A DNA stretch of 64,000 nt, from positions 1-64,000 of the forward strand of contig JAHISP010000026.1 of NCBI GenBank assembly GCA_018818165.1, read 5' to 3'. This document shows positions 6,547 through 26,690 of this stretch, piece by piece. Below the pieces are notes generated by a model. That model worked only from the letters and a program-made list of their open reading frames with translations. It ran no database searches and was not told the DNA's origin. The position numbers were made by a program, and so were the translations under genes. Origin of the DNA: Bacteroidota bacterium. Lineage in GTDB: Bacteria; Bacteroidota; Ignavibacteria; Ignavibacteriales; Melioribacteraceae. Positions within the stretch are counted from its first letter, which is position 1, and the number at the start of each line of letters is the position of its first letter.

Positions 6547-7293
6547 ATGCTCATACTCTTAATAAGTGGCGCATTTTTCCCAATGCTAATATATCTATAT
6601 TTTCTTTGGAAATTTGACAAAAATGAACCAAAATACATTAAACTAGTTTTTTATAACTTCATTTATGGAGCAACTGCAGCTATTATTTTAGGAATTGTTG
6701 GCAGCAAAATGTTATCATTGCCACTAAATATATTTTTTAGTGATGAGACAATTAATCTAATAAAAATAATCTTAATTGCTCCTTTTGTCGAAGAGATTGC
6801 AAAAGCATTATTTCTATTCAAAGCTATTAAAAATAAAAATATTAATGATTTTACCGATGGATTAATTTATGGTGGTGCAATTGGGCTTGGATTTGGTATG
6901 ATAGAATATTTTTTCTATTTCCTTTTGTTTAGTGATTCCCTTTCTCAACTTATTTCTATATTTGTAATTAAAAGTAGTTTTTCCGTTGTTATGCATTGTT
7001 TATCTACTGCTTTAGTTGGAGGTATAATAAGTTTGACCAAATATTCATCTCAAATTAAATTGGGTATTTCAACCATTTACGCATTAATAATAGCAATGTT
7101 CATCCATTTTATTTGGAATATAAGTGTGATTTTCAAAAATACTTTTTTTGTCGGAATTATTTTTATAATAATTGTATTTCTTCTATTTACTCTAACATAT
7201 TACATCTTATTTAAATATGAGAACAATTTGATTCAAAAAGAGTTAGCTGGTAAAACTTCAGAAAATTCACTTAATAAATATTCTGCTAAATGA
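6547..7293 (+). CDS. PrsW-family intramembrane protease
   Basis: A 248-aa protein with about seven or eight hydrophobic segments. The PrsW family motifs are present: PFVEEIAKAL with E82-E83, GAIGLGFGMIEY with E120, H150 in VVMHCLSTALVGG and H187 in FIHFIWN. PrsW of Bacillus cleaves the anti-sigma factor RsiW at site 1. A membrane anti-sigma factor is encoded about 3.5 kb away in this window, but a link between the two is only speculation. The ATG at 6547 has no strong ribosome site. Confidence 0.85.
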   Translation: MLILLISGAFFPMLIYLYFLWKFDKNEPKYIKLVFYNFIYGATAAIILGIVGSKMLSLPLNIFFSDETINLIKIILIAPFVEEIAKALFLFKAIKNKNINDFTDGLIYGGAIGLGFGMIEYFFYFLLFSDSLSQLISIFVIKSSFSVVMHCLSTALVGGIISLTKYSSQIKLGISTIYALIIAMFIHFIWNISVIFKNTFFVGIIFIIIVFLLFTLTYYILFKYENNLIQKELAGKTSENSLNKYSAK

Positions 7294-7770
7294 CATTATT
7301 CAATTAAGATAGCAACAATCTGTAGTTAGTGTTAAAATAAGTAAAAATAAAATTGTATCAATAAGCAATATTCTTAAATATCGATAAACGTTTTCAAAGA
7401 GGTTACAATTGTTTGAGATAGTATTTGGTTAATCTTCACATTACATATAAAATTATTAAATGAGGTAAAACAAGAGTTGTAATAAAACAGTATTTCCTTA
7501 ACTACAGATGCAAATTAAAATAAAAAACTAGTGTTGATTTACTATTAATTTTAAAACAGCCTCGATGGTCCTTGATAGCAGTGAAAATAAATCTGTGAAA
7601 AATGATATTTCGATGCTATCTAATAGTACAATGGTTTTATATTTATGAAAATATATTTCAAGACGCTGTATCAAATTGTCACAAAATGAGTCAAGTTTAA
7701 TGCTCGGGGGTGGTTTGAACTCGGAGCAAAAAGGCTCGTTATCGGGGCTGAAAGGTTCAAAATTGCAGCA
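7294..7770. other. intergenic region with a repeat copy
   Basis: About 480 bp without a convincing gene. A 36-nt stretch at 7549-7584, with core ACAGCCTC...TGGTCCT...GATAGCA, matches the reverse complement of 16747-16785 near the IS remnant, with about eight mismatches, many of them transitions. The short frame on the minus strand across 7671-7868 is composed of terminator repeats and the end of osmC, and I do not consider it a gene. Confidence 0.5.
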
Positions 7771-7794
7771 AAAAGGTTCACTAATGAACCTTTT
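7771..7794 (-). terminator. terminator after osmC
   Basis: AAAAGGTTCA, loop CTAA, TGAACCTTTT form a perfect 10-bp stem 33 bp downstream of the osmC stop codon. On the minus strand the 3' arm runs into TTTTT. Two degraded copies of the AAAAGG(T/C)TC arm lie just beyond it (7726-7760). Confidence 0.75.
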
Positions 7795-7827
7795 GCATTT
7801 GGAAATATTGTACGTTGAAAAATAATT

Positions 7828-8259
7828 CTATTCAGGAACAACAATTTTGTAGTTATGTGTAATTTCAACAGATTTTTGAAGCATTGCTGTTACTCCGCAA
7901 TAAGTAGTTTGGGAAAGTTCAATAGCACGTTCAACATCTTTGCCTTTTATATCTTTGCCAGTAAATACATATTCCAAATTAATTTTTGAAAATACTTTTG
8001 GATGAGTTTCGGTTTGTTCAGCAGTAATATTTATTTGAAAATCGTCAAGTTTTATGCGTTTTTTCTGTAAAATAGCAATTACGTCAGCACCAGTGCAACC
8101 ACCGAGACTAAGCAACAAAAGCTCTTTTGGTCTAATTGCAGCACCACTTCCACCAAAATTTGCTGGTCCATCCATTGTTACCCAGTGGTTTGAATCCTCA
8201 CTTTTGCCAATAAATGTAATACCGCTTAGTTGTTTTACAATTGCTTTATGTTCTGTCAT
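7828..8259 (-). CDS. OsmC/YhfA-family protein
   Basis: 143-aa OsmC-like protein, a thiol-dependent peroxidase fold that reduces organic hydroperoxides, or the related YhfA group of less certain role. The two expected cysteines are C55 in SLGGCTGADV and C121 in TYCGV. The sequence after the start (KQLSGITFIGKSEDSNHW, MDGP) is closer to the YhfA/SACOL1771-like subgroup than to Ohr. It is separated from the upstream MetX-like gene by 83 bp on the same strand and followed by a hairpin terminator. Confidence 0.9.
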   Translation of the reverse strand: MTEHKAIVKQLSGITFIGKSEDSNHWVTMDGPANFGGSGAAIRPKELLLLSLGGCTGADVIAILQKKRIKLDDFQINITAEQTETHPKVFSKINLEYVFTGKDIKGKDVERAIELSQTTYCGVTAMLQKSVEITHNYKIVVPE

Positions 8260-8342
8260 TGTATTTCCTTTCTATTAAATAATATTTTTAGCAATTTGAT
8301 ACAATTTTTGAAAAATGGTTTCAATAGTTCAATTTATTTATT

Positions 8343-9725
8343 TCAGTTTTGTCTAAGTATTTTGGGAGTTACTAGAGGAATTGTTATTTCCGTTCTCACT
8401 TTTTCTCCTTCTCTTCTTTCAGCGGGTTCAAAATTTAACGTTTTTACAAATTCTAAAGCTAAAGAATCAATAAGTGGGGTAGCCCCTAGTATGATTTCAG
8501 GACACCTAACAGTACCTGTAGTGTCAACTGAAACACGCACGTAAATCCTTTTTTGAAATAAAAGTGAATCAGTGAATTTATAAAAATCTTTTTGAACTTC
8601 TTCCAAAGGCTTAATCATTTCTGGCATTTTGCAAAAGTTCGTGATAGATATAAATTCATTAGGGTTTTGTGTTTCTGACTTTTTACAATTGTCTTTTACA
8701 ACTTGGTTTAAAAATTTATTTATTTCTACACCACATTTTTTAAGCTCACAGCCTATTCCAAGATGCCCACAATTGTTATCCAATAATAATACTTTGCAAT
8801 TTAACTCATTTGCTAATTCAAGTGCTGGTGCTGGATTTACCAAATGGTCGGTCTTATTAAGAATAAAGAATACTTCTGTTTTAATGTGTTTTGCAGTTTC
8901 ACTAACAGAATTATTGAAATTTTTATAAATATTATAGCTTTCCATTGCATTTAATTGAGCTAAATGGTTTTCAATTGTAAATGTCTTTGAAGGTTCGCGA
9001 TTTTCAATTTTTTCATCTATAAATTTATCAAAATCCTCGTGGCTAATGTTTTCAACAATATACTCTGGTGAGCGTGCAAAAAGCTGAGTTGTGTAACTTA
9101 TCATTATGTTAATTAAATCATCGCTTGCACCAAGTTCTTTATACGATTCAATCATTCTTTTTCTGAATTGCATAATTAGCATATCGTAGCTTGAGCGGCG
9201 TGGAGTTGCAACGTAAGGCACAGCTTTATCAATAAAATCTGGATAGGAAACAATCCATTGCAAAGCTTGCATGCTGCCCATTGAGCCACCAACAATTGCG
9301 TAAATATGTTTAAATCCAAAATTTTCGGTAAGCATTTTATATTGTGAATTTACCATATCGGTAATTGCAATTTTGGGAAAGTCTTTTCCGCCTTGTAATT
9401 CAGAATTTGAAGGAGATGTAGAAACTCCATTGGCAAGTGCGTCAATAGCGATAATATAAAATTTGGAATCGTCAACCAATTTGTTTTGACCAATTAAGCC
9501 AGTAATTTGCTCCGCGGTTCCAGCAAACCATGTTGGATAAATAACAATATTTGAGGAATCTGCATTTAGCTCCCCAAATGTTTTATATCCAACTGTACAG
9601 TTTCGTAATGTTTCGCCACTCTCTAACTTTAAATCACCAATATTTGCAAATTGTTGAACCGATTGTCCAAATAAAATAGATGTTAAAATAAGTGTAAATG
9701 TTAAAAATTTACGAAATAAAGTCAT
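8343..9725 (-). CDS. secreted MetX-like alpha/beta hydrolase fused to TonB C-terminal domain
   Basis: 460 aa. A signal peptide (residues 1-20, ending LFGQS) is followed by an alpha/beta-hydrolase domain of the homoserine O-acetyltransferase (MetX) family. Its nucleophile elbow is GGSMGSMQ with S148, and the likely acid and base are D293 and H321 (CGHLGIG). From about residue 375 there is a TonB C-terminal fold (IYVRVSVDTTGTVRCPEI, then FEPAERREGEKVRTEITIP). MetX proper is cytoplasmic and lacks both the signal and the TonB part, so this is unlikely to be a methionine enzyme. It probably acts on an ester substrate in the periplasm. No TonB-style N-terminal anchor or proline-rich linker is visible. 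Confidence 0.8.
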   Translation of the reverse strand: MTLFRKFLTFTLILTSILFGQSVQQFANIGDLKLESGETLRNCTVGYKTFGELNADSSNIVIYPTWFAGTAEQITGLIGQNKLVDDSKFYIIAIDALANGVSTSPSNSELQGGKDFPKIAITDMVNSQYKMLTENFGFKHIYAIVGGSMGSMQALQWIVSYPDFIDKAVPYVATPRRSSYDMLIMQFRKRMIESYKELGASDDLINIMISYTTQLFARSPEYIVENISHEDFDKFIDEKIENREPSKTFTIENHLAQLNAMESYNIYKNFNNSVSETAKHIKTEVFFILNKTDHLVNPAPALELANELNCKVLLLDNNCGHLGIGCELKKCGVEINKFLNQVVKDNCKKSETQNPNEFISITNFCKMPEMIKPLEEVQKDFYKFTDSLLFQKRIYVRVSVDTTGTVRCPEIILGATPLIDSLALEFVKTLNFEPAERREGEKVRTEITIPLVTPKILRQN

Positions 9726-9737
9726 TTTAATACCGAG

Positions 9738-10556
9738 TTATTTTAGAAATAGAATTAAATAGAGATAAATAATTGGAGCAGAAAAAAGAAGTGAGTCAAA
9801 TCTATCAAGAATTCCACCATGACCAGGAATTAAATTGGAGGAATCTTTTACATCAGCATCTCGTTTAATAAGAGATTCAATTAAATCACCAATTTGACCA
9901 AAAATTCCAATAATAATTGTAAATGCAAAAATATCAATCCAATTAAGGAAAGTTAATAGCACAAATTTTAGAACAATAAGCGAAATAGCAGCAAAAACAA
10001 ATCCAGCAATTGCGCCTTCCCAACTTTTTTTAGGACTAACGCGCGGAAACAATTTGTGTTTTCCAAAAGCAGTTCCAATAAAATAAGCTGCCGAGTCAGT
10101 CATCCAAAGGGTAATTAAAATTGAAATAATGATAAAACCACCATTGGCATATTCTTGCATACCACTAGCATAAAATTCTCTAATTGCGACTATTGTGGAC
10201 GAAAAAAAACCAGCGTAAAAAATTCCTAATAAAGTTGAAGAAATATTACTAATAGCGGATTCTTTATCTCTAAATAGTTCAAACATTAATAGAATTGGAA
10301 TGAGTATTAGAAGCAATATTTCATATGTAGCAAAATGGAAATAAGTGTTTAGAATTATAGCCGTAATAGAAATGAAACCAACTAAATTTGAAGTGAAAAT
10401 GTTTTTTTTATTTACAATTTTGGAAAATTCGTAAAATGATGTAAGTCCTATTGCCATAATTAAAATTAGAAATGGAATTCCTCCCCAATAGGTTAATCCT
10501 AATAAAACTGGAATAGTAAATATTGCAACTAAGATTCTGGTTACTCTATTGCTCAT
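9738..10556 (-). CDS. cdsA: phosphatidate cytidylyltransferase
   Basis: Makes CDP-diacylglycerol from phosphatidic acid and CTP in the inner membrane, the branch point of phospholipid synthesis. About eight hydrophobic segments are visible. The family signature is SLIKRDADVKDSS, then PGHGGILDRFDS near the C-terminus, and an earlier DSAAYFIG and SPKKSWEG are also diagnostic. The frame extends to a TTG at 10628, but the ATG at 10556 (MSNRVTRILVAIF) gives a normal CdsA N-terminus and I prefer it. Confidence 0.93.
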   Translation of the reverse strand: MSNRVTRILVAIFTIPVLLGLTYWGGIPFLILIMAIGLTSFYEFSKIVNKKNIFTSNLVGFISITAIILNTYFHFATYEILLLILIPILLMFELFRDKESAISNISSTLLGIFYAGFFSSTIVAIREFYASGMQEYANGGFIIISILITLWMTDSAAYFIGTAFGKHKLFPRVSPKKSWEGAIAGFVFAAISLIVLKFVLLTFLNWIDIFAFTIIIGIFGQIGDLIESLIKRDADVKDSSNLIPGHGGILDRFDSLLFSAPIIYLYLILFLK

Positions 10557-10670
10557 AAAAAAGTACTCTTTTGTTTTAGGGAAATTAAGGCAAGAAGTAT
10601 CTTGCTTATTCGTTATTATAATTTTCAAGACATATTTTTTGATATGCCTTGAAATTAATCTATTTTATTC

Positions 10671-10706
10671 AAAAAAAACCTTGTTCTTTTTAATAAAGAA
10701 AAGGTT
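10671..10706 (-). terminator. Rho-independent terminator after zinc-ribbon gene
   Basis: Read on the minus strand, AACCTTTTCTTT pairs with AAAGAACAAGGTT (one bulged base) and is followed by a run of eight T. It lies 10 bp beyond the stop codon at 10716 and separates this gene from cdsA. Confidence 0.8.
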
Positions 10707-10715
10707 AATAAAATA

Positions 10716-11042
10716 TTAGTCTTCTTTATTTATGTCGCTAATAATGGCAATGGCATCTTCAGCGTCAACTCTCTTTGTAAGTATTTTTATAATTGATAAA
10801 TCTCCAACACCGGGGAAACTGCTATCATTTTGGTTTAAAATAAGCACTTCAATTTCGGCACCTTCCAAATTAGATTTTAGCATATTTGCCTCAATACTAT
10901 CAGCACAGCTATAAACAATTACCCAGTCTTTTGGATGGACCAAATGTCCTTCAAACTCTTTATTAGTAACTAGTTCTTCACCACAGTCTGGACATACTGA
11001 CATTCCTCTGTGGTACTCATATTCGCATTTAGGACAAATCAT
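10716..11042 (-). CDS. zinc-ribbon protein with DUF2007 domain
   Basis: A 108-aa cytoplasmic protein. The N-terminal zinc ribbon has ligands C3, C6, C17 and C20 (CPKC...CPDC). The remainder (about residues 37-105) resembles DUF2007, a small ferredoxin-like domain called a putative signal-transducing protein, recognised by VIVYSCADSIEANMLKSNLEGAEI. The function is not known. It is co-directional with the CPBP protease gene upstream (13-bp gap) and has its own terminator. Confidence 0.75.
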   Translation of the reverse strand: MICPKCEYEYHRGMSVCPDCGEELVTNKEFEGHLVHPKDWVIVYSCADSIEANMLKSNLEGAEIEVLILNQNDSSFPGVGDLSIIKILTKRVDAEDAIAIISDINKED

Positions 11043-11055
11043 AAAACCTCCAAGT

Positions 11056-11985
11056 TTATTGAAACTTATAATAGTTCTTTTTTAAATAAAATAAAAAGAA
11101 AAAAAACAAAATTGTTAGCAAAAGCAATAAAATAATATGTAAAGAAAATTCATCTGGTTTTACAATACTCGTATTCATAAGTTCATCGCTTCCCCAAATA
11201 AAATAGGCAAGGATTGAAATAAAGTTATTAATAAAATGAAGAGTCATTGGTATAACTATTGATTTTGACTGATAGGCAGCAAAACCAAGGTACATAGCAA
11301 GAATTGTGAGCGCTAATAATCCATATGGATTAAAATGGTAAAGTGCAAAAGCAAAGGAAGTAATTAGAATAGCCCAAAATGGTTTCATGGAATATTCTAA
11401 ACTTTTTTGCGTAAATCCTCTAAAAAATACTTCTTCGCAAATTGCTGGTGTTATTGAAACTACTAACACAACAAATACAATTTCAAATAATGATTGAGCA
11501 TTTAGTATAATTCCATACGAGCTTTCCATTAACTTATCTAGATCATCGGCAAAATTTTTCATGTGTTGAAATATTGAAAATGAATCTGCGAGCTGTTGTA
11601 TAATATAATTTTGGACATAAATAAAACTCTGAAGAAGAGGAATAAGAATTACTAAACCAACAATAAAAATTACTACTTCTTTAATTGTTGGAAGTTTAAT
11701 TCGAAGTACGGGGGAAACTTTATCAACATAAACTAGTTTTGCTAACATAATTGTTGGAGCTAAAATAAACAAGAGTTGTCCAGCAACATTAAATAAGCGC
11801 ACAGCATTTACGTTAGCACTTGATAAATCAGTTCCAAAAATTGCAAGAAATAAAAGTCCACCACCAAATTGGAAAAGGAAAAAGACAATAATTAAACCAT
11901 AAATTGCTGCTTTGCCTGGATGCATTGTGGGATTAATTTCATTATCAAAATTATCGTTTTGTGGAGCGTTAAAATTATTGTTCAT
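11056..11985 (-). CDS. CPBP-family intramembrane metalloprotease
   Basis: 309 aa with about eight membrane spans and a hydrophilic N-terminus rich in asparagine. The CPBP (CAAX protease, Abi) motifs are in order: EEVFFRGF with E184, E185 and R189; a second motif with H217 (LYHFNPYG); and the last motif LHFINNF with H250 and N253. These are the expected glutamate and histidine active-site residues. Bacterial members include bacteriocin-immunity proteins and proteases of unknown target. The short gap to the zinc-ribbon gene suggests one transcript. Confidence 0.88.
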   Translation of the reverse strand: MNNNFNAPQNDNFDNEINPTMHPGKAAIYGLIIVFFLFQFGGGLLFLAIFGTDLSSANVNAVRLFNVAGQLLFILAPTIMLAKLVYVDKVSPVLRIKLPTIKEVVIFIVGLVILIPLLQSFIYVQNYIIQQLADSFSIFQHMKNFADDLDKLMESSYGIILNAQSLFEIVFVVLVVSITPAICEEVFFRGFTQKSLEYSMKPFWAILITSFAFALYHFNPYGLLALTILAMYLGFAAYQSKSIVIPMTLHFINNFISILAYFIWGSDELMNTSIVKPDEFSLHIILLLLLTILFFFFLFYLKKNYYKFQ

Positions 11986-12038
11986 AAATTATCAAAATAA
12001 ATTTTTAGTAAAATTAAAGAAATTGAAATTTGCATCAT

Positions 12039-12848
12039 TTACTTAATTGCTTTACAATCATCAAATCTTAAAATTAATTTTTTTACACGGTCTAAATCAA
12101 CGCCATTTTCCCAATTGCCATCTTTCTTAAAATATGAGCCAACGATAAATACATCAGCCAAATTATAATATTTATCAATATTTTCCGCCGTAATTCCAGA
12201 GCCAATTATTATTGGAAGTTTTGTGCATTGCTTTACTGAAGATAACTCATCAATATCGGTTTCAGCTCCAGTTGAAGAGCCAGTAACAACAATTCCATCA
12301 CTCAAAAAGAATTCGGCAGCTTTTGCTGTTTCCACAATAGAAACATCCAAAGTAATTGAATGCGAACTATGTTTTTTTTTAATATCCGTAAAAACCAAAA
12401 CATTTTCAGCTCCAATTTGCTTACGGTATCTAAGAATATTTCCAGCATTTGATTGCGTAATTCCTTCATCAGCCACGTGTGCAAACACAAAACCCTCGGC
12501 GCGGATAAAATCCAAATTTGCGGAATGAGCAATTGCGAGAGCTTCTTTGTTTGCCGAAGCGAGAACTTGAATTCCAACAAAAAGATTTGTCTGCCGTTTA
12601 ATTTCGTAAGCAATTATGGACATAATTGAAGTAATTTCGGGTCCAGATGAATTATTTAAATAAGGAACGTCGTGCATATTTTCAATCATAATTCCTTTTA
12701 ATCCAGCACTTTTATAAATTTTTGCTTCAGAAATTGCTAAATCTATAATATTTTGCACATTCCCAGAATATTTTGGCGTTCCAGGAAGAGCATTTAAGTG
12801 AATCATTCCAATTACTAACTTTGAGTTAATTAAATCTTGTTTTTGCAT
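12039..12848 (-). CDS. BtpA/SgcQ-family protein
   Basis: 269 aa predicted as a TIM-barrel of the BtpA family, marked by GMIHLNALPGTP near the N-terminus, IMIENMHDVPY and VTGSSTGAETD. In cyanobacteria BtpA is needed for photosystem I stability; the SgcQ branch occurs in sugar operons. Neither context is seen here, so the substrate is unknown. The start ATG is at 12848. Nothing adjacent points to a pathway. Confidence 0.85.
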   Translation of the reverse strand: MQKQDLINSKLVIGMIHLNALPGTPKYSGNVQNIIDLAISEAKIYKSAGLKGIMIENMHDVPYLNNSSGPEITSIMSIIAYEIKRQTNLFVGIQVLASANKEALAIAHSANLDFIRAEGFVFAHVADEGITQSNAGNILRYRKQIGAENVLVFTDIKKKHSSHSITLDVSIVETAKAAEFFLSDGIVVTGSSTGAETDIDELSSVKQCTKLPIIIGSGITAENIDKYYNLADVFIVGSYFKKDGNWENGVDLDRVKKLILRFDDCKAIK

Positions 12849-13172
12849 AATATTTTCTGTTTAATTAAAATATTTCAATAATCTTATAATGAGTTTACAT
12901 TTTTTAAATACCAAAATAAATATAACACTAAAAATTAAAAATATTTGTTATGCAATATTTTTTATTTAGGTTGGATTTAAGAAATGCAGATGTATTGTTG
13001 TTTGTGGGAAATGATTTCTTGGGATTTAATGTGAACTGCTTTTCTTGAATTAAAATGAAGTGTTAAATAATTTTTTCTATAAATGAAATGAAAGACTGTG
13101 ATTTTATCTTTTGCTCACTTCAAGATCAAATTCTTTAAAGTTATACTTACAATTAAAATTGGAATATAATTC
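12849..13172. other. intergenic, nothing recognised
   Basis: About 320 AT-rich bases between the BtpA-family gene and the broken lipoprotein gene. I see no conserved motif, repeat or RNA. It may contain further decayed sequence, since the next gene is also broken. Confidence 0.4.
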
Positions 13173-20364: not shown

Positions 20365-23070
20365 GTGAAAAAAATACTTAAAATAGCGATAGTATTTATA
20401 ATCTTATTTTCGATAAGTTCCTACGCACAACTGGATACTTTAAAAATTACCCCTAAGTTAATTACAAAAAAACTTCCATTCGGTTTAACAGCAAAAGTTA
20501 GTTCATCATTGCCAAAAGTATCTTTAGTTTTAAGTGGCGGTGGTTCGCGCGCAATTGTTTCACTTGGAGTAATTAAAGCTCTTGTGGAAAATCAAATTCC
20601 AATTGAGTCAATTGTTGGAACAAGTATGGGAAGTATTCTTGGCGGACTTTATGCTTCGGGTTATTCTATTGAAGAACTTGATTCAATAATTACTTCAATT
20701 GATTGGTCTTATTTTTATTCAGCAAAAGAAACCAGAAGAAATGAGCTTTATCTTGACCAGAAAATTACAGAAGATCTTGCACTTATTACATTAGATATTG
20801 ATGGATTAAACCCTGTTCTTCCAACTGCTTTTAATTCAGGACAGCGTTTCCAAAATTTTCTTAATAATTATACAATTAATGCTCCAATACATCCATACAA
20901 TAGTTTTGATGAACTTAAATATAGATTTAGAGCTGTTAGTACCGATTTAACTTCGGGTGAAATGATAATTCTGGAAAAGGGCTCTTTGTCACAAGCTCTA
21001 AGAGCAAGTTCCAGTGTAACATTTCTTCTTGACCCTGTAGAAGTTGATTCTATGTTATTGGTTGATGGAGGATTAGTTGCAAACGTTCCAACAAAAGCAG
21101 CAAAACAAATTGGTAACGATTTTATAATTGCTGTTAATATGACAAGCAATTTAAGAAAACGTGATGATTTAGATACTCCATTAAAAGTTGCAGACCAAAT
21201 AGTTTCAATTCCAATGAATTTAGTAACTGAGCAAAATTTAAAGTTAGCAGATGTAGTAATTACACCAGAATTAGGGAATTGGGAAAGTGATAATTTCAGT
21301 TCGCTCGATAGTTTAATTGAAATTGGCTACAAAACAACTTTAAATAAAATTGATGAAATATTACATGGTATTAAAGAATATCAGATTTCACATATTACTG
21401 ACAGTTTAGTAACTTTTAAAAACTTAAAACCATTTAATCCAAACTCGGATATTGAAAATAAAGTAGCTAATAAATTTATTGGTGTCGATTCAGTAAGTAA
21501 TAAAGAAATAGTACTTGAAATTTGTAATGAATATCTTTCAGGTAAATATGAAGATATTTCTACTAGTCTATTTTTTAGCGATGATACTGCTTTTATTAAA
21601 ATGGATGTAATACTTAAACCTAAAATAAATGAAGTAGAATTAGTTGGAATAAGTAATGATAGAAAAGGAAATATTGAAAGTATTCTTAAACCAGTTATTG
21701 ATGATTATTATTGCAATAATAATTTAGTCGGATATTTGATAAAAGTACAAGCTTTTTATAGAGATATAGGATTTCCATTTGCCGAGATTGAAAAAATTAA
21801 TTTTGACAATGAAACACATAAATTAACAATTAGTATTGATGAAGGTATTGTTGATTTAATTGTAGTTAATGGGAATGAAAGAAGCACAACACCTTTAATT
21901 TTAAGGGAATTGGAAATTAAGGAAGGAGAATATCTAACTTCCAAAAACCTTTCACAAAGTCTTGAAAATTTAAGAACTACTGGATTATTTAATTCAGTAG
22001 ATATAAATATTCAAAAGAATACTGATATTAATATTCTTAAAGTTAACGTTGAAGATAAATTAACAAGTGTGGCAAGACTAGGGCTAAAGATTGACAATGA
22101 AAGATATCTTCAACCATCTATTGATATTAGAAACGAAAATCTTTTTGGCAGTGGAACAGAATTAGGAGTGTATTTTTTAGGGGGCTTAAGAAATCAACAA
22201 ATTATAATTGAGCATAAAGCAAATAGAATTTTTAACACTTATCTTACTTATAAAATTAAAGGTTATTTCGATTCTAATGATATTTATACTTATAAAGACG
22301 ATCCTAGTGTAAGTTCAAATGCTTTTTCGAGATCAAATAATGGAGAATATAGGCAAGAACTTCTTGGTACTTCTGTTGGTGTTGGAACGCAAACTGGTAA
22401 ATTTGGTAATTTAATTGCTGAATTTAGATATGAACGCAACAAAGTATATAACTTAACAAATAAAGTTATTAACCCATATACTTTTAATATTGCTACTCTT
22501 CGATTTAGCATGAGAATTGACACGCAAGATAAATATCCTTATCCTTTAAGTGGCGTTTTACTTCACACCTATTATGAGACAGCTCAGCAGTTTTTGGGTG
22601 GTGATGAATCCTATCTGAAATATGCGCTTTTATATAAGGGGTATTTTTCTTTAAATAGTAATAATACGATAATTCCTAAATTTGAAATTGGCTTTGCTGA
22701 TGAAACTCTTCCTTTAAGCCAGCAGTTTTTCTTTGGTGGAAAATCTTCTTTTTGGGGTTTTAGAGAAAATGAATATCGTGGACGACAAATAATTATTGGT
22801 GGATTAACTTACAGATATAAACTTCCATTCAAAATTCTTTTTGATACTTATTTTTCATGCCTTTATAATCTTGGATCAATATGGGAAAGGGAACAAGAGA
22901 TGAAATTAAAGAATTTCAAACATGCAGTTGGAATTATGGCATCGTGGGATACTCCACTTGGGCCAGTTGATTTGGGAGTAGGTAGAAGTTTTACTATTAA
23001 TAAATTGCTAGACGAATTTATAGTTAGGGGCGAACCCACAGTATACTTATCACTTGGATATTTCTTTTAA
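20365..23070 (+). CDS. patatin-like phospholipase with POTRA and Omp85 barrel
   Basis: 901 aa. A signal peptide (ends SSYAQ, residue 21) is followed by a patatin domain (about 50-260). This has the oxyanion loop SGGGSRAIVSLG, the nucleophile motif GTSMGS (S87) and the catalytic aspartate in VDGGL (D234). POTRA-like modules follow (about 430-590), then a C-terminal Omp85 barrel ending in a phenylalanine. This is the type Vd (PlpD) layout, in which the lipase is exported through its own barrel. The start is a GTG at 20365 with no clear ribosome site, supported by the signal peptide that follows directly. It probably sits in the outer membrane. Confidence 0.9.
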   Translation: MKKILKIAIVFIILFSISSYAQLDTLKITPKLITKKLPFGLTAKVSSSLPKVSLVLSGGGSRAIVSLGVIKALVENQIPIESIVGTSMGSILGGLYASGYSIEELDSIITSIDWSYFYSAKETRRNELYLDQKITEDLALITLDIDGLNPVLPTAFNSGQRFQNFLNNYTINAPIHPYNSFDELKYRFRAVSTDLTSGEMIILEKGSLSQALRASSSVTFLLDPVEVDSMLLVDGGLVANVPTKAAKQIGNDFIIAVNMTSNLRKRDDLDTPLKVADQIVSIPMNLVTEQNLKLADVVITPELGNWESDNFSSLDSLIEIGYKTTLNKIDEILHGIKEYQISHITDSLVTFKNLKPFNPNSDIENKVANKFIGVDSVSNKEIVLEICNEYLSGKYEDISTSLFFSDDTAFIKMDVILKPKINEVELVGISNDRKGNIESILKPVIDDYYCNNNLVGYLIKVQAFYRDIGFPFAEIEKINFDNETHKLTISIDEGIVDLIVVNGNERSTTPLILRELEIKEGEYLTSKNLSQSLENLRTTGLFNSVDINIQKNTDINILKVNVEDKLTSVARLGLKIDNERYLQPSIDIRNENLFGSGTELGVYFLGGLRNQQIIIEHKANRIFNTYLTYKIKGYFDSNDIYTYKDDPSVSSNAFSRSNNGEYRQELLGTSVGVGTQTGKFGNLIAEFRYERNKVYNLTNKVINPYTFNIATLRFSMRIDTQDKYPYPLSGVLLHTYYETAQQFLGGDESYLKYALLYKGYFSLNSNNTIIPKFEIGFADETLPLSQQFFFGGKSSFWGFRENEYRGRQIIIGGLTYRYKLPFKILFDTYFSCLYNLGSIWEREQEMKLKNFKHAVGIMASWDTPLGPVDLGVGRSFTINKLLDEFIVRGEPTVYLSLGYFF

Positions 23071-23673: not shown

Positions 23674-24690
23674 TTATAAATTATACTTGTTTTTAATCCA
23701 CTCATATGCTTCATTTAATTCTTTTGTCCTTTCTTCTGCCAATGTTCTTAAGTCTAATCCAAGGCTTTCAACTTTGTCTGGATGATATTGCCCAACCAAC
23801 TTCAAATATTTTTTTCTAATTTCCTTTTTCTGAACAGTACCTTTTAGATCCAATAATTTTCCATAGTAAATATATTTTTGCTCTTCCGTTGCAGTCTTCG
23901 AATCAAAACCTGGTTTGCTATGTGAATTGTATTTCTCATATTTTTCGTAACGTTCAAATCTCTCATATCGCTCATATTTTTCGTATTCGTTTTTCTTACT
24001 TTGTCTTTCCGATTGCTCATTGGTTTTATAATTATTTGAATAATTAGATGGTCGTTTCCCAATAGATTTTAGAATCCCATTGTAAAACAGACTATTCCTT
24101 TCACCTTTATTCATTAAATAATCAACTAATAAAAAGTTCAAATGGTTCCAATTGGTAGTAATAATATTAGAGGATAGTTTAGTTAATTTTTTTTCAACAT
24201 GTGTTTGCAACAAATTTGGACGAGCTTTATCTAATTGATTTGGATCAAACTTAGGAGGAACAAATTTCAGCACTTGGTCAACCCAACTTTCATCACTTTT
24301 AAAATCTATTAATGTATATAGTACTAAGAAATCATTTAGAACATCCTGTTTTGAAACATTATTAATAAGTGTTTTAGAATAACTTATACATTTAAGATGA
24401 CCACTTAATGTAGAAATAAATTCATTAAGCACTTGGTCGCTATCCATTCTGAACCATTGATAAAATGTTGTTGAGGAAATTTCATAAATGTAATGATTTT
24501 TAAATTCAATACTGGTCATTACTTTTTTGGGCAAGTATTTTTTTGAAAAATCATTTATTCCATCATAAATGCTTCCAATTGAATTCCAAATTTGGCGGTA
24601 TACTTCACCATAAATAATAGATGCTTCATACGGTTTTTGTTGTTCATACAAATAATCGGCAGAATTTCTCATTCCAGAAATATTACTCAT
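23674..24690 (-). CDS. protein with C-terminal J-domain and charged repeat linker
   Basis: 338 aa. The N-terminal two-thirds is helical and not recognised. A low-complexity linker (about residues 231-256) consists of repeated (Y/F)E(K/R) units such as YERYERFERYEKYEKY. The last 70 residues form a DnaJ domain with the HPD motif at 303-305 (GQYHPDKVESLG) and the usual KELNEAYEWIKNK helix. A J-domain at the C-terminus recalls DjlA-type co-chaperones that bring DnaK to a specific client, but no membrane anchor is seen. It lies between the nuclease-like gene and the REC-SBP-CheW gene, all in one direction. Confidence 0.75.
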   Translation of the reverse strand: MSNISGMRNSADYLYEQQKPYEASIIYGEVYRQIWNSIGSIYDGINDFSKKYLPKKVMTSIEFKNHYIYEISSTTFYQWFRMDSDQVLNEFISTLSGHLKCISYSKTLINNVSKQDVLNDFLVLYTLIDFKSDESWVDQVLKFVPPKFDPNQLDKARPNLLQTHVEKKLTKLSSNIITTNWNHLNFLLVDYLMNKGERNSLFYNGILKSIGKRPSNYSNNYKTNEQSERQSKKNEYEKYERYERFERYEKYEKYNSHSKPGFDSKTATEEQKYIYYGKLLDLKGTVQKKEIRKKYLKLVGQYHPDKVESLGLDLRTLAEERTKELNEAYEWIKNKYNL

Positions 24691-24731: not shown

Positions 24732-26690
24732 TTAAGAACGTGGAGCATTAAGAACAAATTTATTATTGACAACCAATTTATCTATATTTACAAGAATTGC
24801 GAGACCGTCATCCATTTTTGCAAAAGCTAACATATAGTTTGTCTTATCCGTTTTTACATGGGAAGGAGGATCTACAATTTCACTAGCAGCAATATTTGTC
24901 ACTTTTGACACCGCATCTACAACAATTCCAAGATTTACAAATCGTCCATCCAACTCTGCTTCTAAAACGATAATTATATTTTTATCAGTATATTCACTTT
25001 TTGGCATATTAAAATTCATTTTTGGGTCAATTATGGGAATAAGTTTACCGCGTAAATCAATCATTCCCAGCACAGAAGCTGAAGCATTTGGAACAGCGGT
25101 AACCCCAACCATCCTAATTATTTCTTTAATTTTTAATATGTCAATTCCAAAAGTCTGCTTATTTAAAATAAATGTTAAATATTTTCCTTCAAGATTTAAT
25201 GAAGACTTAGAAGAGATTTCCTTTTTCGAAAGACCTTTTCTTTCCAACAAATTTTCAATTTCGGAAGCAGAATCAAATAATTTTGAACTTTGCGAACCGT
25301 AATTTTGTCCTTTGCAAGCAACTTGTGCAAATCTTAAATCAACAAATTGTTTAACATCTATTATATTTCCAACGTTCATTGTATCATGCATATAATGCTG
25401 CATTTTTTCCAAATCCTCTAAAACTGGATAAAGATCATGGGTCTTAATTCCTAATGGCTCGGTCAAAACGTTTTTGAGTAATGGAACTTTCAAACCAAGT
25501 GTTTTATCAGGATCAAGAAAATCAACTCCAATTTTAGCTGCGGTTTCTGGTCGGTCATTAATATATTTACCCGCTTTTACTAATAAATCAGTCAGTTCAA
25601 AAACAGCTTCTGTGTGATTGTCAATTAAATCTTGTTGAAGTGTAATAACACAGCATGGATGATTATTCCAAAGTTCGGATGATGCAAACTGCATATCAGC
25701 AATTCCGCCAGCAATAGCTTTTGTTCCCAATGGCTCGGCAACTAAGTAGCCAGCTGCGTCGCTATTATCAGCTAAAAATTCTGTCATTTTAATAGGGGGA
25801 GCAACCTCAAAGCTAATATCAACTCCTTCTTGCCCAGAAACACCAGGCTTTAATCCAATTTTACTAAAAAAAAGGTGTGCCAACATATTGTGAACGGAAA
25901 GTGTGTGAGGAATATAAAATGATTTATGCTTAAAAAAGTTTTCTTTTTCTGTAAAAAAATCTCCACCTTTTTTGTTTCTTACAAACATACTTCCATTTTT
26001 GTGAGCAAATAATACAAGCTTAATAGGAACATTGTAATTATATAAATCCATTGCAATTGGTGCTAAAACACAAGCTCCTTCTACTGTTCCTTGTTCAAGT
26101 GATGCACCAACGGGATTCCAGCTTGACATGCATTCAGTTTCTAATTCAAAATGCTTTGGTTTATATTCGCCAGTATTAATTAAGTGTTTTAAAACTCCTA
26201 ATACTAAGTGATCAGTTATTTGAATGTGAGCTAATTTTATAATTACTTTCCCAAATTCATTTATTCTGGCTCTTGGTCTAATAGTAGCAACTTTGTCTTT
26301 TTTCTTTTCACCAATTGCTTCTTCAATTTTAGTTTTTAATTCATCGGCATTAAATGGTTTTGATATAAAACTGTTTGCTCCTGCTTCAACTGCCGAGGCA
26401 ATTTCTTTTTTTTCGCCTCTTCCTGTAGCCATTAAAAATGGAAGACTTTTGAATTTTTCACTTTCTTTTACCCATTTCAATAATTCAAACCCATTCATAT
26501 TGGGCATATTCCAGTCACTTATAATTAGATTAAACCCTTCTTCGTTGGTTAATTTCTCAATAGCATCATTTCCATCTTCAGCCTGCACAATTTGTTCAAT
26601 TCCAAGTTGTTTTAGAACTTTAATTTCCATTTTGCGCATTACGGCAGCATCTTCTACTAGAAGAATTTTGATGTTTGTTTTTAGAGACAT
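24732..26690 (-). CDS. fusion: CheY-like receiver, NMT1-type substrate-binding domain, CheW
   Basis: 652 aa with three domains. Residues 5-125 are a CheY-like receiver: acidic pair E13-D14, phospho-acceptor D59 in SDWNMPNMNGFELL, T89 and K111. Residues about 145-480 resemble the NMT1/NrtA type II periplasmic binding fold, with SVHNMLAHLFFSKIGLKPG, VAEPLGTKAIAGG and NNHPCCVITLQQDLI, but there is no signal peptide, so it must act in the cytoplasm. Residues about 500-640 are a CheW domain (TFILNKQTFGIDILKIKEII, GMIDLRGKLIPIIDP). A plausible role is coupling cytoplasmic ligand sensing to a chemotaxis array. No CheA or receptor gene is in the window. Confidence 0.82.
   Translation of the reverse strand: MSLKTNIKILLVEDAAVMRKMEIKVLKQLGIEQIVQAEDGNDAIEKLTNEEGFNLIISDWNMPNMNGFELLKWVKESEKFKSLPFLMATGRGEKKEIASAVEAGANSFISKPFNADELKTKIEEAIGEKKKDKVATIRPRARINEFGKVIIKLAHIQITDHLVLGVLKHLINTGEYKPKHFELETECMSSWNPVGASLEQGTVEGACVLAPIAMDLYNYNVPIKLVLFAHKNGSMFVRNKKGGDFFTEKENFFKHKSFYIPHTLSVHNMLAHLFFSKIGLKPGVSGQEGVDISFEVAPPIKMTEFLADNSDAAGYLVAEPLGTKAIAGGIADMQFASSELWNNHPCCVITLQQDLIDNHTEAVFELTDLLVKAGKYINDRPETAAKIGVDFLDPDKTLGLKVPLLKNVLTEPLGIKTHDLYPVLEDLEKMQHYMHDTMNVGNIIDVKQFVDLRFAQVACKGQNYGSQSSKLFDSASEIENLLERKGLSKKEISSKSSLNLEGKYLTFILNKQTFGIDILKIKEIIRMVGVTAVPNASASVLGMIDLRGKLIPIIDPKMNFNMPKSEYTDKNIIIVLEAELDGRFVNLGIVVDAVSKVTNIAASEIVDPPSHVKTDKTNYMLAFAKMDDGLAILVNIDKLVVNNKFVLNAPRS

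Follow-up and report, generated by a model that had tools for sequence, protein, structure and literature searches.

The window analysed here, a 64,000-nucleotide stretch of contig JAHISP010000026.1 from an Ignavibacteria genome (GCA_018818165.1), encodes a protein in which a receiver, a substrate-binding domain (SBP) and a CheW domain follow one another (Table 1). Judging from its sequence, we consider it on balance probable that this protein is a cytoplasmic, ligand-sensing coupling protein of chemotaxis, docked in the array through CheW and gated by phosphorylation. This reading builds on domains that score above cut-off, a receiver with its phosphorylation residues in place, a set of SBP motif residues that does not vary and purifying selection, on the occurrence of CheA in all carrier genomes examined in the class, on the linkage of relatives to chemotaxis and transporter genes, and on the precedents of CheV, CheWS, NasS and CmpC.

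Domain organization of the window protein

The open reading frame starts with ATG and runs for 652 codons with zero internal stops; frame 1 of the plus strand across 24732-26690 is stop-rich. Pfam recognizes Response_reg (residues 9-123, E 2.3e-25), NMT1_2 (PF13379; residues 151-387, E 4.9e-21, 76.1 bits against a cut-off of 24.7) and CheW (residues 503-640, E 2.9e-29), each above the curated cut-off and in the order proposed in an earlier note on this DNA, which had suggested a domain search and had read a CheY-like receiver, an NMT1/NrtA-type SBP region and, last, a CheW domain. The two receiver residues named there, D59 and K111, are correct, and D14 and T89 are also present. The absence of a signal peptide, claimed in the same place, agrees with the receiver at the N-terminus and with low N-terminal hydropathy: the Kyte-Doolittle mean over 19-residue windows reaches at most 1.54 in the whole protein and 0.76 in windows starting within the first 40 residues, and hydropathy, the one measure used for this, thus indicates neither a membrane segment nor a signal peptide.

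Table 1. Features of the receiver-SBP-CheW gene, in window coordinates
Feature	Coordinates	Strand	Basis
Whole gene, receiver-SBP (NMT1_2)-CheW, 652 aa	24732..26690	-	ORF and Pfam
Receiver domain, residues 1-130 (D14, D59, T89, K111)	26301..26690	-	Pfam Response_reg 9-123
Cytoplasmic NrtA/CmpA-type SBP, residues 145-470	25281..26258	-	Pfam NMT1_2 151-387; sequence similarity to 3un6, CmpC/NrtC and NrtA
CheW domain, residues 503-640	24771..25184	-	Pfam CheW
H267, at the NrtA H196 ligand position by alignment	25890..25892	-	Alignment and CmpC H409 = NrtA H196; H in 76/78
HPCC motif, residues 344-347; C347 aligned with NrtA K269	25650..25661	-	78/78 SBP domains; CmpC alignment; equivalence putative

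Encoded next to the gene are one protein with a DnaJ domain and one of the patatin-POTRA-Omp85 type. The former (23674-24690, minus strand) is encoded just downstream on the same strand and combines a C-terminal DnaJ domain (Pfam) with a charged, Tyr-rich low-complexity stretch. The latter (20365-23070, plus strand) is by Pfam a fusion of a patatin-like phospholipase, POTRA and Omp85, and resembles type Vd autotransporters.

Fold and conserved residues of the SBP

The homology of the window SBP to solved SBPs is strong by sequence comparison. With phmmer, the domain matches 3un6 at E 4e-16, and a 28-row SBP profile reaches 3un6 at E 3.5e-28, the cytoplasmic CmpC/NrtC domains at E 8e-14 to 2e-12 and NrtA at E 7e-11; among solved structures, these searches reach only binding proteins and the CmpC/NrtC domains. 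AlphaFold models made with four sequences were poor (full protein and SBP domain: pLDDT 49.1 and 49.9, pTM 0.34 and 0.50), and the fold assignment therefore rests on homology. Foldseek with the SBP model (pLDDT 49.9) placed 3un6, NrtC, the CmpC regulatory domain and NrtA at the top, with TM 0.37-0.45 and an rmsd of 9-11 Å, which may be taken as weak support. The SBP assignment made for this region in the earlier note holds by sequence, with Pfam, phmmer and the profile, and structure prediction adds little on a two-lobed SBP fold.

Residue conservation was counted over 78 receivers and 78 SBPs, leaving out the L202 receiver (27 residues matched in a start-trimmed frame) and the L219 SBP (matched in two pieces). 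In the receivers, D14, D59 and K111 are present in 78/78 and T89 in 77/78. The SBPs share H155, D160, H161, W191, N192, H230, G233, S234, H262, S265, M302, W341, H344, P345, C346 and C347 without exception (78/78), while H267 and E319 are found in 76 of them and N232 in 66. CmpC H409 corresponds to H196 of NrtA and to Q198 of CmpA, as described in PMC11349869; by count, the same histidine is number 408 in the deposited chain. The other charge-balancing residue of NrtA is given as K269 (PMC8786288). It lies 73 residues after H196, and the CmpC lysine located 73 residues after its own histidine aligns with C347. By this alignment, window H267 would occupy the NrtA H196 position, and all members read probably have a cysteine where NrtA has its nitrate lysine, K269. 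This mapping runs through CmpC and not through a direct alignment with NrtA, since a PDB search with residues 325-460 alone yielded only 3un6 (E 1.4). The cysteine at the K269 position (C347, 78/78) led us to reject a nitrate sensor as a reading.

Distribution and selection

The earlier note had suggested looking for homologues of the same architecture. An SBP query of 391 genomes sampled from the class located a receiver-SBP-CheW frame of 648-686 aa in 13 of them (E <= 1e-30), including that of the window. Here and elsewhere, sampled genomes were drawn evenly from the larger groups. A whole-protein search of 395 genomes of the phylum, with three candidates scored per genome, gave five full-length matches, the window's included. 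Two Ignavibacteria MAGs (L001 and L002) encode the same protein at 56-57% identity; they were found among the 80 relatives kept out of 335, most of which match only the receiver or CheW. In the class of the Desulfobacteraceae MAG that carries L003, SBP matches were detected in 105 of 389 genomes (E <= 1e-45). For 99 of the 105, the best match falls within an open frame of at least 456 aa; the remaining six have SBP matches of 1e-71 to 1e-79, and the three of them that are listed have frames of 316-319 aa. Beyond these two classes the spread is thin. One of 245 genomes from the phylum of a Thermodesulfovibrionia MAG encodes the full receiver-SBP-CheW protein, and among 246 sampled from that of a Planctomycetota MAG, four have matches, located in open frames 317-361 aa long. 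No match was obtained in the phylum of a Rhodoferax MAG (0/269 genomes) or in single genomes (0/10), although zero counts from samples without any positive carry little weight, and viral contigs scanned for further SBPs gave no relative. One family from the phylum of the window (L107-L112 and L114) has SBPs 31-34% identical to the window SBP that lack the receiver, start with an N-terminal twin-arginine-type leader and carry the motif as WPNHICC.

In a 77-row tree of receiver-SBP regions, the 13 Ignavibacteria proteins group with two proteins from one genome of the Desulfobacteraceae class (G959) with support of 100/100, and this clade nests within 33 receiver-SBP-CheW proteins (93/91, not starred). 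The architectures other than CheW all come from the Desulfobacteraceae-class sample. As the root was placed at the midpoint, the tree does no more than suggest that receiver-SBP-CheW was transferred into the Ignavibacteria. Close pairs show the pattern expected of purifying selection. For L145 and L146, dN/dS values are 0.037/1.00 for the whole protein, 0.040/1.18 for the receiver, 0.028/0.95 for the SBP and 0.031/1.12 for CheW; for L140 and L185 they are 0.059/0.54, and dS is saturated between L145 and L148. Given this selection and the recurrence of the same frame in 13/391 genomes, the window-type frame is more than a product of chance.

Architectures of receiver-SBP proteins

The 63 stretches from the Desulfobacteraceae class comprise 60 picked from the listed SBP matches of that class to cover length classes, together with L003, L140 and L141, so that the counts of architectures are not frequencies. 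Combined with 12 further Ignavibacteria loci and the window, they provided 77 distinct receiver-SBP proteins, which were scored by phmmer with pieces of the window protein and of L003. The SBP is preceded by a receiver in all 63 Desulfobacteraceae-class loci, the receiver of L202 lying partly inside the frame. By phmmer, 39 of the 77 proteins, the window protein included, are receiver-SBP-CheW, 28 show receiver-SBP and no other domain and five are receiver-SBP-HATPase-STAS; a Pfam scan covered part of the 28 and all of ten unusual proteins. Single proteins read receiver-SBP-receiver-SBP-CheW (L203), HATPase-receiver-SBP-HATPase-STAS (L217) and, with the SBP matched in two pieces, receiver-SBP-CheW (L219), and one that reads receiver-SBP-receiver-SBP by phmmer (L215) gains a CheW domain by Pfam. 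Pfam also found SpoIIE on L210 and L212 (below cut-off on L209) and an N-terminal histidine kinase on L208. In L214 (6978-10058, minus strand, 1027 aa), receiver-SBP is fused to a CheA core with H-kinase_dim, HATPase_c and two CheW matches, apparently a CheA with its own ligand-binding domain.

The L003 protein, from a Desulfobacteraceae MAG, is a receiver-SBP-HATPase_c_2-STAS protein whose gene is located directly upstream of genes for CheA (Hpt, H-kinase_dim, HATPase, CheW, receiver) and CheW, with an MCP further on. On the same stretch (6709-13157), the receiver-SBP-HATPase-STAS gene lies between CheA and a receiver protein that has, by eye, a PP2C/SpoIIE-like tail, a position that hints at a chemosensory kinase connected to a partner-switch output.

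The window protein is one branch of a larger modular family. Receiver-SBP could be a two-input module, in which a solute bound by a cytoplasmic domain of the periplasmic binding type gates the output of a response regulator. Plugged into CheW, CheA, SpoIIE, HATPase-STAS or a histidine kinase, and in part encoded beside the importer of the solute, it would let the cell weigh an internal solute against kinase activity without a chemoreceptor. We put this broader proposal forward tentatively, at a little under even chances.

Gene neighbourhood and the transporter

Many stretches end at contig ends, and all neighbourhood counts for the Desulfobacteraceae class are therefore lower bounds. A separate CheA core was found on at least 16 of the 63 stretches, and a separate CheA, CheW, MCP or CheD gene on at least 23. 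A permease, an ATPase and an exported SBP, which together form an NMT1_2-type ABC transporter, are present on at least 18 of the 63; family names for transporter and chemotaxis genes were checked by Pfam on L003 and L232. The trio adjoins receiver-SBP-CheW in L140, L183, L185, L186 (with CheD) and L195, and receiver-SBP alone in 13 loci (L220, L228, L229 and L231-L240). Of the 63 loci, 28 are of the CheW type; a separate chemotaxis gene accompanies at least eight of these and the trio at least five, low numbers that count against a sensor working in the array. In clustering of 25 loci, the recurrent neighbours were the transporter trio, CheD, a small acidic protein and housekeeping-like genes; aminotransferase-like genes seen by eye beside L232 did not recur in four or more of the 25.

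Across the 18 exported SBPs, identity to the window SBP is 21-25%, and 17 of their frames, as called, carry a twin-arginine pair within the first 25 residues. At 18 positions compared with the window SBP, all 18 keep D160, W191, H230, N232, G233, S234 and S265, and also H267, M302, W341, H344, P345, C346 and C347, 14 positions in total. H155, H161, H262 and E319 differ, which counts against the array sensor. The simplest reading of the shared positions is that receiver-SBP and exported SBP may bind the same or a similar ligand. The operons of L232 (8065-13909) and L240 (8062-13977) encode a signal-less cytoplasmic SBP, an ABC ATPase, a Tat-type exported SBP, a permease and receiver-SBP, and a CheD gene lies divergent to them; 13 loci contain this set, either with CheD or without it. 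Cytoplasmic SBPs of the transporter operons are of an HPCC kind in 9/18 and of an HPGS kind in 8/18.

In the Ignavibacteria, a chemotaxis neighbour was found at two of the 12 other loci (CheW at L142 and MCP at L149), and no neighbour family is common to more than three of the 13. The Ignavibacteria gene is an orphan, which again counts against the preferred reading.

Chemotaxis genes in carrier genomes

According to the earlier note, a genome without CheA would have refuted its reading. The window genome (4.88 Mb, 105 contigs) has two CheA (PF02895) matches, eleven MCP matches and nine CheW-domain matches, including the window protein, which is the sole CheW or MCP match on its own contig. 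In a search of this genome for NMT1_2, no second protein was found besides the window protein, a result that counts against the array sensor. The co-occurrence with CheA that the note had suggested examining holds in all 13 carrier genomes of the class Ignavibacteria (13/13, PF02895). As CheA is also common in relatives without a receiver-SBP-CheW protein (18/23), co-occurrence is a necessary condition passed and no significant association.

Comparison with known systems

The window protein would work like CheV, CheWS, NasS and NrtC/CmpC and, by tests of their features, is a member of none; by analogy, it may best be placed functionally between CheV and CheWS. Like CheV, it would unite a CheW-like domain and a phosphorylatable receiver in one cytoplasmic protein, and the phosphorylation residues are present here. 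The usual order in CheV is CheW then receiver. In the window protein the receiver is N-terminal and is separated from CheW by an SBP of about 330 residues, whereas CheV has no ligand-binding domain; with NMT1_2 in between, the two-domain make-up of CheV is not reproduced. Phosphorylation of CheV is described as changing how it binds receptors and as required for its function and for binding some receptors, with D238 as the phosphosite in Pseudomonas aeruginosa (PMC12691637). CheWS of Treponema denticola is a cytoplasmic SAM sensor anchored to arrays by CheW, and thus offers the likeness of a small-molecule sensor brought into the array by a CheW domain; it differs in having a CheR-like SAM-binding sensor and no receiver, and is described in spirochetes (PMC10653840). 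No Pfam match to a CheR-like SAM-binding domain was found in the window protein at E up to 1.

NasS, of the NasT-NasS pair, is an NrtA-like sensor without a signal sequence, predicted to be cytoplasmic and acting on a response regulator; it differs in being a separate protein whose partner NasT is an RNA-binding antiterminator, and in reportedly keeping all nitrate-coordinating residues (PMC3795266), where the window family has a cysteine at NrtA K269. Of the NrtA nitrate site (H196 and K269), the window protein retains the histidine as H267 and has C347 at the K269 position, in the alignment via CmpC. The C-terminal domain of NrtC/CmpC is cytoplasmic and NrtA-like, and is regarded as regulatory and as binding a solute (PMC11349869). 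These domains are the second-closest solved relatives by profile, but their fusion partner is an ABC ATPase instead of a receiver or a chemotaxis domain, and they have a lysine where the window family has C347. The closest solved relative by sequence, the Staphylococcus aureus SBP 3un6 (E 3.5e-28, first also in Foldseek), has an aligned Cys-Cys pair but is an ABC-type import component.

Proposed mechanism and alternative explanations

In the mechanism that we propose, the CheW domain would dock the protein into the array of CheA and chemoreceptors, and the NrtA-type domain would close on a small cytoplasmic solute; for Desulfobacteraceae-class members encoded beside the transporter, this is probably the imported solute or a close analogue. 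Solute binding would alter how the adaptor couples receptors to CheA, and phosphorylation of D59 by CheA would set the gain or provide feedback or adaptation, as proposed for CheV. All of these steps, from docking and ligand binding to phosphorylation and an influence on CheA, are inferred.

One alternative is that the protein is a CheV-like phosphate sink or adaptor in which the SBP has lost solute binding and serves merely as a structural or protein-docking part. A receiver and CheW suffice for CheV-like function, CheV itself being a receiver-CheW fusion described as a phosphate sink (PMC12691637), and the Ignavibacteria, by the search of the window genome, have no transporter gene of the NMT1_2 family. 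We consider such a loss unlikely given that 78 SBP domains with differing fusion partners are identical at fourteen or more positions, which are also kept in distant exported transporter SBPs, and that the SBP has the lowest dN between L145 and L146 (0.028). Receiver-SBP might otherwise touch the ABC transporter, as the NrtC/CmpC tail does, and report or regulate transport instead of sensing free solute, a view favoured by the adjoining permease, ATPase and exported SBP in 18/63 loci and by the NrtC/CmpC regulatory domains as closest solved cytoplasmic relatives. This appears rather unlikely, since 45 of the 63 stretches have no complete transporter set (18/63 being a lower bound) and the window genome has no other NMT1_2 protein, so CheW-fused members cannot everywhere depend on a transporter.

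The conserved histidines and cysteines invite two further explanations. Binding of zinc or iron by the invariant His/Cys set, with no organic or oxyanion ligand, would fit the invariance of HPCC and several histidines in 78 SBPs and the alignment of C346-C347 with the Cys-Cys of 3un6, the nearest solved relative, whose entry title we take to denote a structure with zinc. The models are too poor for metal-site geometry, though, and zinc in a crystal may be adventitious; we regard a metal sensor as improbable. Catalysis would suit the same residues if the SBP-fold domain, like Thi5, were an enzyme through which the protein coupled a metabolic reaction to signalling: Thi5 and 'Enzyme of biosynthetic pathway' entries appear lower in the Foldseek list obtained with the poor model, and the active-site histidine of Thi5 is described as working with PLP and Fe(II) (PMC10848271). 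As binding proteins and CmpC/NrtC domains are all that the sequence searches reach, and the fusion partners seen are signalling domains, an enzyme seems very improbable indeed.

Novelty and implications

Cytoplasmic NrtA-like sensors have precedents in NasS and the NrtC/CmpC tail, and a CheW adaptor that senses a ligand has one in CheWS. No description of the receiver-NMT1_2-CheW architecture was found among the papers listed from the open-licence literature, judged by title and abstract start, and the main text of a survey of CheA architectures (PMC10782961) does not contain 'NMT1', 'SBP' or 'substrate-binding'. Muok et al. (2023) report 30 undescribed CheW architectures in Pfam 35, 12 of them with input domains, and the bare order receiver-NMT1_2-CheW may already be listed in that survey (PMC10653840). 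The family, its alternative outputs, the conserved SBP motif and the link to a transporter were not found in the open-licence literature searched.

If the proposed reading is true, some arrays of Ignavibacteria and of relatives of Desulfobacteraceae would read an intracellular solute through a coupling protein, bypassing the receptors, and the same sensing module would also feed outputs other than chemotaxis. The role of CheW-fused domains, the purpose of CheV-type phosphorylation and the imports of HPCC-type NMT1_2 transporters would become testable, and a single binding screen with the soluble domain could settle the ligand for the whole family. The family probably lets some bacteria steer by the contents of their own cells.
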